This document shows, in pieces, positions 35,635 to 39,033 of a DNA stretch of 64,000 nt. This DNA is from Nocardioides albertanoniae. Its GTDB lineage: Bacteria; Actinomycetota; Actinomycetes; Propionibacteriales; Nocardioidaceae. Both the position numbers and the translations under genes were made by a program. Numbering within the stretch: the first letter of the stretch is position 1; each line of letters starts with the position of its first letter. The notes under the pieces were generated by a model. It saw nothing but the letters and a program-made list of their open reading frames with translations. It was not told where the DNA came from and made no database searches. The stretch lies in NCBI RefSeq assembly GCF_006716315.1, contig NZ_VFOV01000001.1, positions 3,612,501-3,676,500 of the forward strand, written 5' to 3'.

Positions 35635-36153
35635 TCAGTCCTGGTCCTCGGCCGGCCCCAGGCCCTTGGCCGAGTCCGGCAGCGGCGGCCGGACGCCGTC
35701 GGCGTCGTAGGCGTGGAGCTGGCCGATGCGGCGTACGTGACGCTCGTCGTCGCTGAACGGCTCGGCGAGGAAGATCTCGACGAACTTCGTCATGTCCTCG
35801 AGGCTGTGCATCCGGCCACCGACCGCCACCACCTGGGCGTTGTTGTGGTCGCGGGCGAGCTTGGCGGTCTCCTCGCTCCACGCGAGCGCGCAACGGATGC
35901 CGGTGACCTTGTTGGCCGCCATCTGCTCACCGTTGCCCGACCCCCCGATCACGACCCCGAGGCTGTCCAGCCCCTGCTCCCGGTCACGGGCTACCCCCTC
36001 GGCCGCCCGGATGCAGAAGACCGGGTAGTCGTCGAGGGCGTCATAGACGAAAGGCCCATGATCGACAGGCTCGTAGCCGAGCTCCGTCAGACGGTTGGTC
36101 AGGTGGGACTTGAGTTCGAGACCGGCGTGGTCGCAGCCGATGTGGACGCGCAT
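35635..36153 (-). CDS. rpiB: Ribose-5-phosphate isomerase B
   Basis: A 172-residue RpiB/LacAB-type sugar-phosphate isomerase for ribose-5-P and ribulose-5-P in the pentose phosphate pathway. Landmarks are MRVHIGCDHAGLELKSHL, DYPVFCIRAAEGVA, GVVIGGSGNGEQMAANKVTGIRCA and the phosphate-binding HNNAQVVAVGGRM. The catalytic Cys of many RpiB is Ser in GGSGNG, as in the mycobacterial type. ATG 36153 has GAGAGGA 8 bases upstream and is preferred to 36171. The tail of about 25 residues (GVRPPLPDSAKGLGPAEDQD) is an extension. Confidence 0.93.
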   Translation of the reverse strand: MRVHIGCDHAGLELKSHLTNRLTELGYEPVDHGPFVYDALDDYPVFCIRAAEGVARDREQGLDSLGVVIGGSGNGEQMAANKVTGIRCALAWSEETAKLARDHNNAQVVAVGGRMHSLEDMTKFVEIFLAEPFSDDERHVRRIGQLHAYDADGVRPPLPDSAKGLGPAEDQD

Positions 36154-36239
36154 ACGGCCATCCTCTCTCATGCTCGTCTCGACCTCGGATTCGGTGGTTG
36201 GTCTTGACTGGGATTGGTCTTGACGGGTGTTGCTTGGGG

Positions 36240-36415
36240 TACTGGCCCTGGAATCGACTGCTTCGTCGTGGGCTGTTTGCCGCCGACCCGTACGCGGAGG
36301 GTGTTTCACGCCGGCACCCGGAGTAAAGGACGGCCTACGGCCGCCGGCTCCGCCGGTCGCCTTCGGCGCTCCTTGACACCGGGCACCGCCGAGAATTTTG
36401 GCTGTTGATCGGGTC
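36240..36415. repeat. Left inverted repeat flanking the DUF222-HNH gene
   Basis: The 405-base gap 36154-36558 holds this repeat and, at about 36197-36228, a tandem TTGGTCTTGAC pair. The core (36317-36383) is CCCGG...CCGGG enclosing AAGGA/TCCTT and three adjacent hairpins at 36331-36343, 36344-36356 and 36358-36368. The plus-strand loops are TAC, TCC and TTC, so the minus strand has C(GTA)G, C(GGA)G and C(GAA)G loops. Similarity to the right copy, in reverse, continues on both sides (GCCGCCGACCC outside; GAGAA...TTTGGCTG...ATCGGG inside). Confidence 0.7.
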
Positions 36416-36558
36416 GGCAGCAGGGGTCTGGCACGGCACATTCGGGTTGGGTGCCGGGCTGGGAACGGGGGCCGGTCGAGCCCGCGCGCGGCGGCTGTTG
36501 CGGGGCGCTGTGCTAGACGATGACGCTTTGTGAATCATTCACAAGGGGAACGACTGGA

Positions 36559-37857
36559 TCAGGGCCGTCGAGTGAACCGGATCGTTCCGTCCGGCAACCG
36601 TTCATGGGTGAAACCGGGTGCGTGCGCCAGCCGATGATGATGCGGACACAACAGAACCCCATCTTTCAGATCCGTCTTCCCGCCCAGAGACCATGGCGTC
36701 AGGTGATGGGCGTCGCACCACTCCGGTGGCATGTCACACCCATCGGCTTGGCAGCACTTCTGCTGCAACCGCAGCGCTTTGCGCTGGATCGGCTGGAAGA
36801 ACCTGCTCGAACGACCTGCGTCGAGAACTTGGCCGTCGGCGCCCAGGACCCAGGGGATGATCGTCGCGTTACAGGCCATCTTCCGAGCCTCGGTCGCGCT
36901 GATCGTGGTGCCGTTGGTCTCGTCGTAGCCGAGGACAGCGGTGCCAAGTTCTTTGCGGAGCTCGTCGAGCGAGATGACTACGTTGATGGTGGTCGGGTCG
37001 CCGCCGTGGCGAGGCAACGCATCAGGGTCGATGGTCTCCAACAGACGGGCGAAGCCTTGGCCCATGAGTCGCTCCCACGGCGGGAGCGGAGTGCCCTTCT
37101 CGACGAACTGCTGCTTACGCGGCTGTGCCCATGCCTCGACATGGGTCTTGAAACGCATCCCCAACGCCACCGGCAGGACACCATCGAAACCGACGGTGCC
37201 GTCGTGGTTGTCCCCGACGGTGCCGTCGTGGTTGTCCCAGACCCGCAGGGCGGTCTTCTGCTGGGCACGCTCTTCTTCGGCAAGGAGGGCTTTGGCTTCG
37301 GCGTCTTCGAACCGGACCGGATCGATCTCGGTCAGGATTCGCTTCCCAACTATGCGTAGTTCGTTGGCAGTCAGTCGGGTGGCGTAGCCGACCAGCAGCT
37401 TCTCGGCGAGCAGCAGGACTTCGTTGCTCGCGACAGGGTTCGCTTCGATCGCGTTGAGGGCGTTGGTGATCACCCGGGCTTTGTCACGGGTGACCACACC
37501 ATCAGCGAGACCGGCAGCGAGCAGCTCGTGCGTGGACACCGAGGTCGCGAGCTTCATCTGTGCACGTGCCGCACCTTTGTCGACGAGCAACTCAGCACGC
37601 ATCCACGCAGACGCATCCTTGTCGCCAGTCTCCTCAGCGATGTCACCAGCCGTGGCGAGCACACGTAGCTCCAGCGCAGCCTGCTGCGCCTTGAGAGTTT
37701 CGAGCCGCGCGAGGACATCCTTCTTCTGGCTGGTTCGCCAATAAGCAGGGTCCATCGCAAGCAGCTCGCCGAGGGCGGTTTCCATGCCAGCAAGAGCAGT
37801 CGCAACCGGGTCACGAGGGCTGGTGCCCCAGTGGTCGACGTGGTTCTCGACGCTCAT
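36559..37857 (-). CDS. DUF222 / HNH endonuclease domain protein (13E12-repeat family)
   Basis: A 432-residue protein. The N-terminal 300 residues match the DUF222 region typical of REP13E12-type proteins in actinobacteria (MKLATSVSTHELLAAGLADGVVTRDKARVI). The C-terminal HNH nuclease domain (about 369-412) has zinc-binding C..C and C..H pairs around WCDAHHLTPWSLGGKTDL and LLCPHHHRLAH. It probably cuts DNA. A direct 24-base duplication gives DNHDGTVG twice. The gene and its margins look poorer in G+C than the neighbours, and it lies between inverted copies of a structured repeat, so it may be part of a mobile unit. Confidence 0.88.
   Translation of the reverse strand: MSVENHVDHWGTSPRDPVATALAGMETALGELLAMDPAYWRTSQKKDVLARLETLKAQQAALELRVLATAGDIAEETGDKDASAWMRAELLVDKGAARAQMKLATSVSTHELLAAGLADGVVTRDKARVITNALNAIEANPVASNEVLLLAEKLLVGYATRLTANELRIVGKRILTEIDPVRFEDAEAKALLAEEERAQQKTALRVWDNHDGTVGDNHDGTVGFDGVLPVALGMRFKTHVEAWAQPRKQQFVEKGTPLPPWERLMGQGFARLLETIDPDALPRHGGDPTTINVVISLDELRKELGTAVLGYDETNGTTISATEARKMACNATIIPWVLGADGQVLDAGRSSRFFQPIQRKALRLQQKCCQADGCDMPPEWCDAHHLTPWSLGGKTDLKDGVLLCPHHHRLAHAPGFTHERLPDGTIRFTRRP
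37191..37238 (-). repeat. Tandem 24-bp duplication inside the DUF222 gene
   Basis: Bases 37191-37214 are repeated exactly at 37215-37238. In the protein this gives two copies of the eight-residue unit DNHDGTVG. It is in frame and likely recent. Confidence 0.9.
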
Positions 37858-37994
37858 TGCTGACCCCCTCTCAAGGTGCCCGTCGGATACCCCTGATTTT
37901 ACTCTTTACCGACCAGTAGATCCATCCATTTTCGCAGGTCAAACCGTTTTTTTGCGGCAGTGAAACTGCAGTCGCACCTCCCGGCCACACTCTG

Positions 37995-38188
37995 GCCGCC
38001 GCCCCGATAATCAGCCAAATCTTTTCTCGATCTGGCCCGGAGTCCAGGACCACCGAAGGTGGCCGGCGAAGCCGGCGGCCGCAGGCCGTCCTTGACGCCG
38101 GGCCAGATCGAGAAGACCGTGAAGAAAGGGTCGGCGGCACACACCCCACGAAACAACAGACCCTAAGAAGCACAGCCCAGGACCAAGA
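37995..38188. repeat. Right inverted repeat flanking the DUF222-HNH gene
   Basis: This fills much of the 351-base gap 37858-38208; the rest (37858-37994) is AT-richer with no recognised element. The core 38024-38114 has a perfect 17-bp outer stem, TTCTCGATCTGGCCCGG with its complement at 38098-38114. Inside are three contiguous hairpins: CCACC-GAA-GGTGG (38050-38062), CCGGC-GAA-GCCGG (38063-38075) and CGGCC-GCA-GGCCG (38076-38088). It is inverted relative to the left copy. Confidence 0.75.
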
Positions 38189-38196
38189 CACCCCAC

Positions 38197-38202
38197 TAGA
38201 TT
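38197..38202 (+). promoter_or_regulatory. -10 hexamer TAGATT before the inositol-phosphatase relative
   Basis: TAGATT ends 6 bases before GTG 38209 with no ribosome site between. It lies immediately outside the right inverted repeat. Confidence 0.5.
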
Positions 38203-38208
38203 CACCCC

Positions 38209-39033
38209 GTGAAGCACCAAGCAACCGCACTCACCGACGAAGCCGTCGCCATCGCAGCAGCAACCGCAGGGGCGGCGGTCGTACGAGAGATGTACGGCAC
38301 CGACCTGAGCCACTTCGACAAGTCACCGACCGACTTCGCGACCGAGGCGGACATCGCGTCCGAGAAGGCGATCCGGGCGACGATCGCGACGTACCGGCCC
38401 GAGGACGCCTTCGAGGGCGAGGAGACCGGGCGGAGCGGCGACAGTGAGCGGCGGTGGCTGGTCGACCCGCTCTGCGGGACCCTCAACTATGCCGCCCAGA
38501 CCCCGCTGGCCGCGGTGAACGTCGCTCTGGTGACGCCCGACGGTGTCCGGGCAGCTGTCTCGGCTGACCCGATCAGCGAGGAGATCTTCTGGACCGACGG
38601 CACCGACGCCTGGGTCCGCAAGGGTGGTGGCGACACCGCCCTCACCCCGACCCCGCGCACCATGCTCGTCGACATCCAGTGCGACGGACCGCTCGACCCG
38701 CCGTTCCTCGGCGGTCAGCTCGTCGCCGACCCCGAGCTCCGCAAGAGGTTCGGCCCGCGGGTGATGTCCTCGACGTTGGCGCTGACCTGGGTCGCGGCCG
38801 GCCGACGGGCGGCGTACGTCACCGACGACCGCCTCACCGAGGGCGGTGGCCTCGAAGGAAGCGTGCACTTCACCGGGCCGATCGCGATCTGCCAGGCCGC
38901 CGGCTGCATCGTGACCGACCTCGAGGGCAACAGGCTCCACGAAGGCCGCGGCATGATCGCCGCGGCCGACGCGGCCACCCATCGGCAGCTGCTCGACCTG
39001 GTCCGCCCGCATGTGAACGCCACGTCAGGCTGA
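38209..39033 (+). CDS. Inositol monophosphatase family protein with altered active site
   Basis: A 274-residue protein of the lithium-sensitive phosphatase fold (inositol monophosphatase, HisN, CysQ). The first metal motif EGEETG (residues 69-74) is present. The main signature DPxDGT reads D86-P-L-C89-G-T, so the second metal Asp is Cys. The late W-D-x-A-A motif is also missing: the region reads HFTGPIAICQAAGCIV. Catalysis by the usual three-metal route is doubtful. The gene may be a regulator or a neofunctionalised paralogue. It starts with GTG at the edge of the inverted repeat and converges with ehuA. Confidence 0.8.
   Translation: MKHQATALTDEAVAIAAATAGAAVVREMYGTDLSHFDKSPTDFATEADIASEKAIRATIATYRPEDAFEGEETGRSGDSERRWLVDPLCGTLNYAAQTPLAAVNVALVTPDGVRAAVSADPISEEIFWTDGTDAWVRKGGGDTALTPTPRTMLVDIQCDGPLDPPFLGGQLVADPELRKRFGPRVMSSTLALTWVAAGRRAAYVTDDRLTEGGGLEGSVHFTGPIAICQAAGCIVTDLEGNRLHEGRGMIAAADAATHRQLLDLVRPHVNATSG

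Follow-up and report, generated by a model that had tools for sequence, protein, structure and literature searches.

Two clusters of three small hairpins flank a single gene in the genome of Nocardioides albertanoniae, and all six hairpins carry a three-base loop of the form GNA closed by a C-G pair. This raises the question of what these clusters belong to and why their loops obey one rule. Within the window, the whole stretch of 64,000 nucleotides that was analyzed, a sequence-only reading had described two copies of a three-hairpin repeat spanning 36317..38114, in which one stem pair changes from A-T to G-C between the copies. All six C(GNA)G triloops were located at exact coordinates in both copies (Table 1), and the changed pair was confirmed at 38052/38060 vs. 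36359/36367. The hairpins are real and the repeats exist; however, the span was too narrow, with approximately 145 nt present per end, and it had been missed that the repeats are the terminal inverted repeats (TIRs) of a dispersed element with a gene inside.

Here, a DUF222-family HNH-nuclease gene is framed by TIRs of ~145 nt, resulting in an element of ~1.9 kb. Each end is a long palindrome with three small hairpins at its apex, and the GNA strand is the one that has its 3' end at the element terminus, so that the favored loops of one end lie on the strand opposite to those of the other. Conservation beyond the TIR drops off within 11–20 nt, and in a diverged family the terminal motif GGGGCTGGTGTTGG has a sharp edge, which was used for the outer limits of the element.

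Table 1. Features of the element copy in the window (positions are those of the window)
Feature	Position	Strand	Remark
Whole element, ~1.89 kb	36264..38150		Probable outer limits, within ~10 nt
TIR at the gene's 3' side (outer to inner)	36279..36421	+	A palindrome in its own right, with three hairpins
TIR at the gene's 5' side (outer to inner)	37995..38138	-
Hairpin GGCC-TAC-GGCC on plus	36332..36342	-	Minus-strand loop GTA
Hairpin CCGGC-TCC-GCCGG on plus	36344..36356	-	Minus-strand loop GGA
Hairpin CGCC-TTC-GGCG on plus	36358..36368	-	Minus-strand loop GAA
Hairpin CCACC-GAA-GGTGG	38050..38062	+
Hairpin CCGGC-GAA-GCCGG	38063..38075	+
Hairpin CGGCC-GCA-GGCCG	38076..38088	+
432-aa DUF222-family HNH endonuclease-type gene	36559..37857	-	Sole gene recognized between the ends
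All-helical stretch, codons 58–180	37318..37686	-	Weak resemblance to ParB/Noc DNA-binding domain
HNH nuclease domain, codons 356–430	36568..36792	-
24-nt in-frame tandem duplication in the gene	37190..37237	+	Window copy

The encoded protein carries a C-terminal HNH nuclease domain, whose fold matches McrA, the Gme HNH nickase and the HNH of IscB. On the level of Pfam profiles, the window protein falls just short of the cut-off for HNH_2 (E 6.4e-4) and HNH (E 1.2e-3), and for PF02720 (DUF222) no match is listed even at E 10. Four sister copies pass the DUF222 cut-off, and in a precomputed table PF02720 is present in most of the best 120 of 353 homologues. The position that we take to be the canonical HNH asparagine is D in the main subfamily of element proteins. 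The genes of L011, L012 and L013 are mosaic: their N-terminal halves nearly match other copies of their own genome, their C-terminal nuclease halves represent another subfamily, and one HNH position is N instead of D. In G038 (N. panzhihuensis), seven gene copies cease to match at residue 385, and L153, L155, L157, L158, L159 and L161 continue with the same sequence (100% identical over the 300–440 nt compared). By sequence reading, this common part bears an IS110-type ORF and looks like an insertion sequence that targets the multicopy HNH gene.

The element is dispersed. In the host genome (4.97 Mb), 19 protein matches correspond to 16 gene copies, three of them split, and 28 scored ends (E 0.01 or better) are all located at gene copies; 24 of these ends are full and four are without the palindrome core. 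This search used a covariance model, R1, built from 23 ends, with 150 of 11996 first-look candidates scored. A covariance-model search of related genomes, as had been proposed, yielded many further ends, and neither unpaired stems nor non-GNA loops at chance level occurred among them. Throughout the genus, R1 found a match in 29 of 215 genomes, and full-length ends are frequent in the group of N. albus, N. luteus, N. panzhihuensis and N. turkmenicus. Inverted ends were measured for 34 elements; L114 is an exception, as its two ends point the same way. Furthermore, eleven gene-less pairs of 449–595 nt, too short for the gene, were fetched, some of them at shared sites, and some sister copies are without one or both palindromes.

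Three insertions are absent at the same locus in relatives, judged by spacing and partly read: L003 in seven relatives (five read), L004 in five (four read) and L008 in five (four read). Many other insertions are common to several species and therefore old. No consistent direct repeat indicative of a target-site duplication was present at offsets 0–44 in the 34 elements, many of whose sites are old, and the same was seen by eye for G133 copies with unique flanks, again at many old sites. Neither an excision product nor a junction or live transposition was seen. Versions of 3.4–3.5 kb contain extra ORFs, which look like other IS elements inserted; by sequence reading, an rve-like IS-type transposase ORF lies inside element L118 (740–2194) and a Mutator-like one inside L174 (1816–3213).

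The loop rule extends far beyond the window copy. The 124 ends examined come from 11 genomes and contain 346 triloops, of which 343 read GNA on one strand (GAA 232, GCA 55, GTA 38, GGA 18); the three real departures are GAT in L002, GGG in L112 and AAA in L174. This count kept 124 of 249 regex hits with one strand per end, two hits (L120) being unparsed; the strand was picked by the loop letters, and the polarity of GNA was established from other analyses instead. As a background, GNA or TNC is present in 16 of 153 other triloop hairpins of the window with stems of at least 5. Among the parsed tetraloops, 23 of 25 are GNNA (GTCA 6, GTAA 5, GGTA 4, GATA 2, GCAA 2, GAAA 2, GACA 2), and the other two, GAAG and GGAG, are stem-mismatch parses, of which L111, L137 and L162 provide two with four bases and one with five.

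On a tree of the ends, parsimony requires 71 changes at the middle loop base vs. two for the outer G and A together (loop by loop, 34, 25 and 12 vs. 0, 0 and 2), counts that are inflated because element copies are not independent owing to gene conversion. The tree was built with FastTree from 118 of the 124 ends, with the hairpins excluded and the diverged families left out. For the stems, 44 cells with both sides changed were observed vs. 14.3 in shuffles, and the covariation score was 0.131 vs. a mean of 0.051 for shuffles, with sliding giving no more than 0.036; three of five stem measures lie above every shuffle. The other two do not exceed the shuffles: the number of pairs changed on both sides was 8 vs. 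6.3 shuffled, which 46 of 500 shuffles reach, and further pair types numbered 12 vs. 12.4 shuffled, reached by 366 of 500. In the diverged gene-less family of G133, GNA is present in 103 of 105 loops (35 ends with 14 distinct cores from 20 loci with exact GTCAAGGA-type flanks, the strand again being picked by loop letters), and the bare GCGAAGC occurs among its end cores. The 71 vs. 2 changes, the stem covariation by three of the five measures and the recurrence of these loops in the diverged family all point to a folded form under selection. Both the dispersal of the element and selection for the fold are well supported.

Hairpin ends of this kind are present in other Nocardioides and in other families of the class. 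Among 341 genomes of the family, 38 contain arrays detected by R2, a core model built over several families, and so do 27 of 394 genomes drawn from the class; R2 was trained on T..C loops, so that the loops of its hits are no independent test, and several distant hits did not show three clean hairpins. In G090 (two copies), G099, G079, G008 and G184, arrays adjoin distant DUF222/HNH genes; the scan comprised 66 loci, including duplicates, and such a gene match was present at five distinct ones. The hairpin end found in G008 (C7) and in G184 is a single one at the 5' side of the gene, the one in G099 is at the 3' side, and in G090 the unit ends where the gene ends. A further array, G008:C9:410396-410460, is separated by ~360 nt from a match to a DUF222 gene at 410822-411205. 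All eight genomes searched for DUF222 genes contain them; this set has three genomes in common with the eight element-bearing genomes, none of which yielded a match to PF01797, the Y1 (HUH) transposase (the control was positive in 5 of 14 genomes). The majority of the distant homologues L025–L048 showed no hairpin ends, and none were found at the DUF222 repeats of G059, G024 and G087. At ~690–900 of L315 (G059), upstream of a DUF222 gene copy, matches occur at 22-nt offsets, which suggests tandem repeats.

Extraordinarily stable DNA mini-hairpins have a GNA or GNNA loop and at least two G-C pairs, as do the element ends; GCGAAGC melts at a Tm of 78 C, and mini-hairpins of this type shield 3' ends from exonucleases (PMC4686876, in its available portions). 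GNRA loops are described as stable in DNA as well as RNA in the accessible part of PMC12550061. In this context, the genuine tetraloops are informative: all 23 are GNNA, and 14 of them have a pyrimidine at the third position and are not GNRA. Because of this, single-stranded DNA is favored over RNA on sequence grounds. The earlier proposal of selection for a folded single-stranded DNA is thus supported by the loop contrast, the stem covariation and the non-GNRA tetraloops, and in vivo the folded form would presumably be DNA.

Other explanations have to be weighed against this. The stems could be kept perfect without any selection, by templated strand switching and gene conversion. The copies within a genome are indeed mosaic, as seen for the C-terminal halves of L011–L013, and the palindrome has been lost at several ends, but templating repairs stems and not loops; neither the excess of middle-base changes nor the changes of loop length that preserve G...A is explained, which makes this account hardly credible. 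It is improbable that the hairpins act as RNA and are selected in transcripts, where they would terminate transcription in both directions or serve as processing signals at the borders of an intergenic repeat. GNA and GNRA loops occur in RNA too, the GC-rich hairpins are stacked in terminator fashion, and the empty sites that were read look intergenic in sequence. However, the 14 non-GNRA tetraloops do not fit this account, and with GNA on opposite strands an RNA crossing the element would receive favored loops at one end only. In addition, a terminator scan of 35900–38500 gave three weak sites, none of them at the hairpin arrays.

More weight is due to the idea, in our judgment still rather unlikely, that the ends are the mobile unit and are moved by an unrelated enzyme of host or element origin, the DUF222/HNH gene having been picked up as a passenger by a single element lineage. 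G133 and G077 contain 107 and 45 model matches, respectively (both strands counted), and those fetched are pairs too short for the gene, in G133 pairs of ~410 nt at high copy. Among the matches listed, these numerous pairs have no DUF222 gene beside them, and just one such gene occurs in G077. Elsewhere in the genus, most of the DUF222 repeats that were inspected likewise showed no such ends. Against this stands the recurrence of the coupling with at least two distant DUF222/HNH lineages in the five genomes named above. Apart from the HNH gene, no gene shared by the elements was found, the additional ORFs looking like inserted IS elements, and the Y1 transposase, the sole transposase profile used, is absent from 8 of 8 genomes.

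With slightly more confidence than doubt, we prefer a transposon-like Nocardioides repeat, the ends of which fold as single-stranded DNA and are processed by its own HNH protein. An end would turn single-stranded as lagging-strand template or as a resected or nicked end, and the strand with its 3' end at the terminus would adopt a branched fold capped by C(GNA)G or C(GNNA)G hairpins, which would form very readily and withstand nucleases. The protein of the element, with its helical, possibly DNA-binding part and its HNH nuclease, might then recognize the folded end and nick close to the outer border, so that the element, or a derivative that shares its ends but not its gene, would be copied or moved without duplication of the target. 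Recognition of the ends by a nuclease or recombinase, already suggested from the window, is plausible since the ends in the host genome flank HNH-nuclease genes. The HNH protein may accordingly be regarded as the candidate processing enzyme, an assignment that the gene-less families, which reach high copy numbers with no such gene linked to them, argue against.

Several known systems resemble the element in part. By its gene, it groups with REP13E12 of Mycobacterium tuberculosis and other actinobacteria, as both are HNH/DUF222-linked repeats. The 13E12 repeat loci have been linked with HNH endonuclease/DUF222 in the DIVE paper (PMC10589994) and are characterized as gene-conversion-prone and without a defined function (PMC13061034); the available portions of these descriptions, by which the two are set apart, do not mention structured ends, gene-less derivatives or GNA loops. 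In anatomy, the element resembles REPtrons, the RAYT-REP systems and REPINs, for which the consulted text reports paired inverted palindromes, predicted folding as single-stranded DNA, and gene-bearing as well as miniature forms (PMC3116915; PMC6006769). Paired inverted palindromes and dispersed gene-less forms are present here as well; however, RAYT is, in that text, an HUH tyrosine enzyme, none of which was found in the eight genomes searched with PF01797, and the ends here comprise ~145 nt with three GNA hairpins. Elements of the IS200/IS605 type do not duplicate their target, and no target duplication was found here; they have the hairpins of both ends on the same strand. In contrast, the favored hairpins here are on opposite strands, and the HUH transposase of those elements, the Y1 enzyme TnpA, is missing from the same eight genomes. 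Their hairpins near the ends are read as single-stranded DNA according to the portion of PMC6006769 at hand. As for DDE insertion sequences, the HNH gene alone was recognized between the ends of the window copy.

The ends themselves are similar to Streptomyces telomeres and parvovirus ends, with the same 3' polarity as the GNA strand of the element. These telomeres are described, in the accessible text, as tightly packed palindromes on a 3' overhang, with GCA loops closed by sheared G-A pairs, and have been likened to the parvovirus “rabbit ear” (PMC4513846). They are chromosome ends with a terminal protein, whereas a dispersed nuclease-encoding element is present here. The d(GCGAAGC) mini-hairpins follow the same loop rule, as laboratory oligonucleotides in the available part of PMC4686876 and as a natural conserved family here. 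No published account of such ends was found in the literature searched. It may tentatively be proposed, with more doubt than conviction, that the element represents a new class of transposable elements in bacteria. Its branched single-stranded DNA ends, capped by GNA/GNNA mini-hairpins and folded in a parvovirus- or telomere-like manner, would be read by an HNH nuclease instead of an enzyme of the HUH, DDE, serine or tyrosine type; the class would occur in several actinobacterial families in gene-bearing and miniature form and would give DUF222/13E12 a function. If true, this would be a natural, repeatedly tested case of the GNA/GNNA hairpin rule of single-stranded DNA, would provide a testable role for the common and unexplained actinobacterial DUF222-HNH (13E12) proteins, and would add an HNH-based route to the mobile elements with structured ends.

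Additional palindromes were observed within and beside the elements. The gene-less interiors of L105–L109 contain several of the type GTGAACGAA-NN-TTCGTTCAC or GTGAAAGAA-NN-TTCTTTCAC. Furthermore, elements often adjoin another dispersed palindromic repeat, as in L288–L307 (G133), L010, L114, L160 and L172, which reads GGTGGTCGAGC...GTCGAGACC and GTGGTTTCGAGGCTCGC...; in some cases, CTCCCTGCCGG is present at a constant spacing of 26–28 nt.
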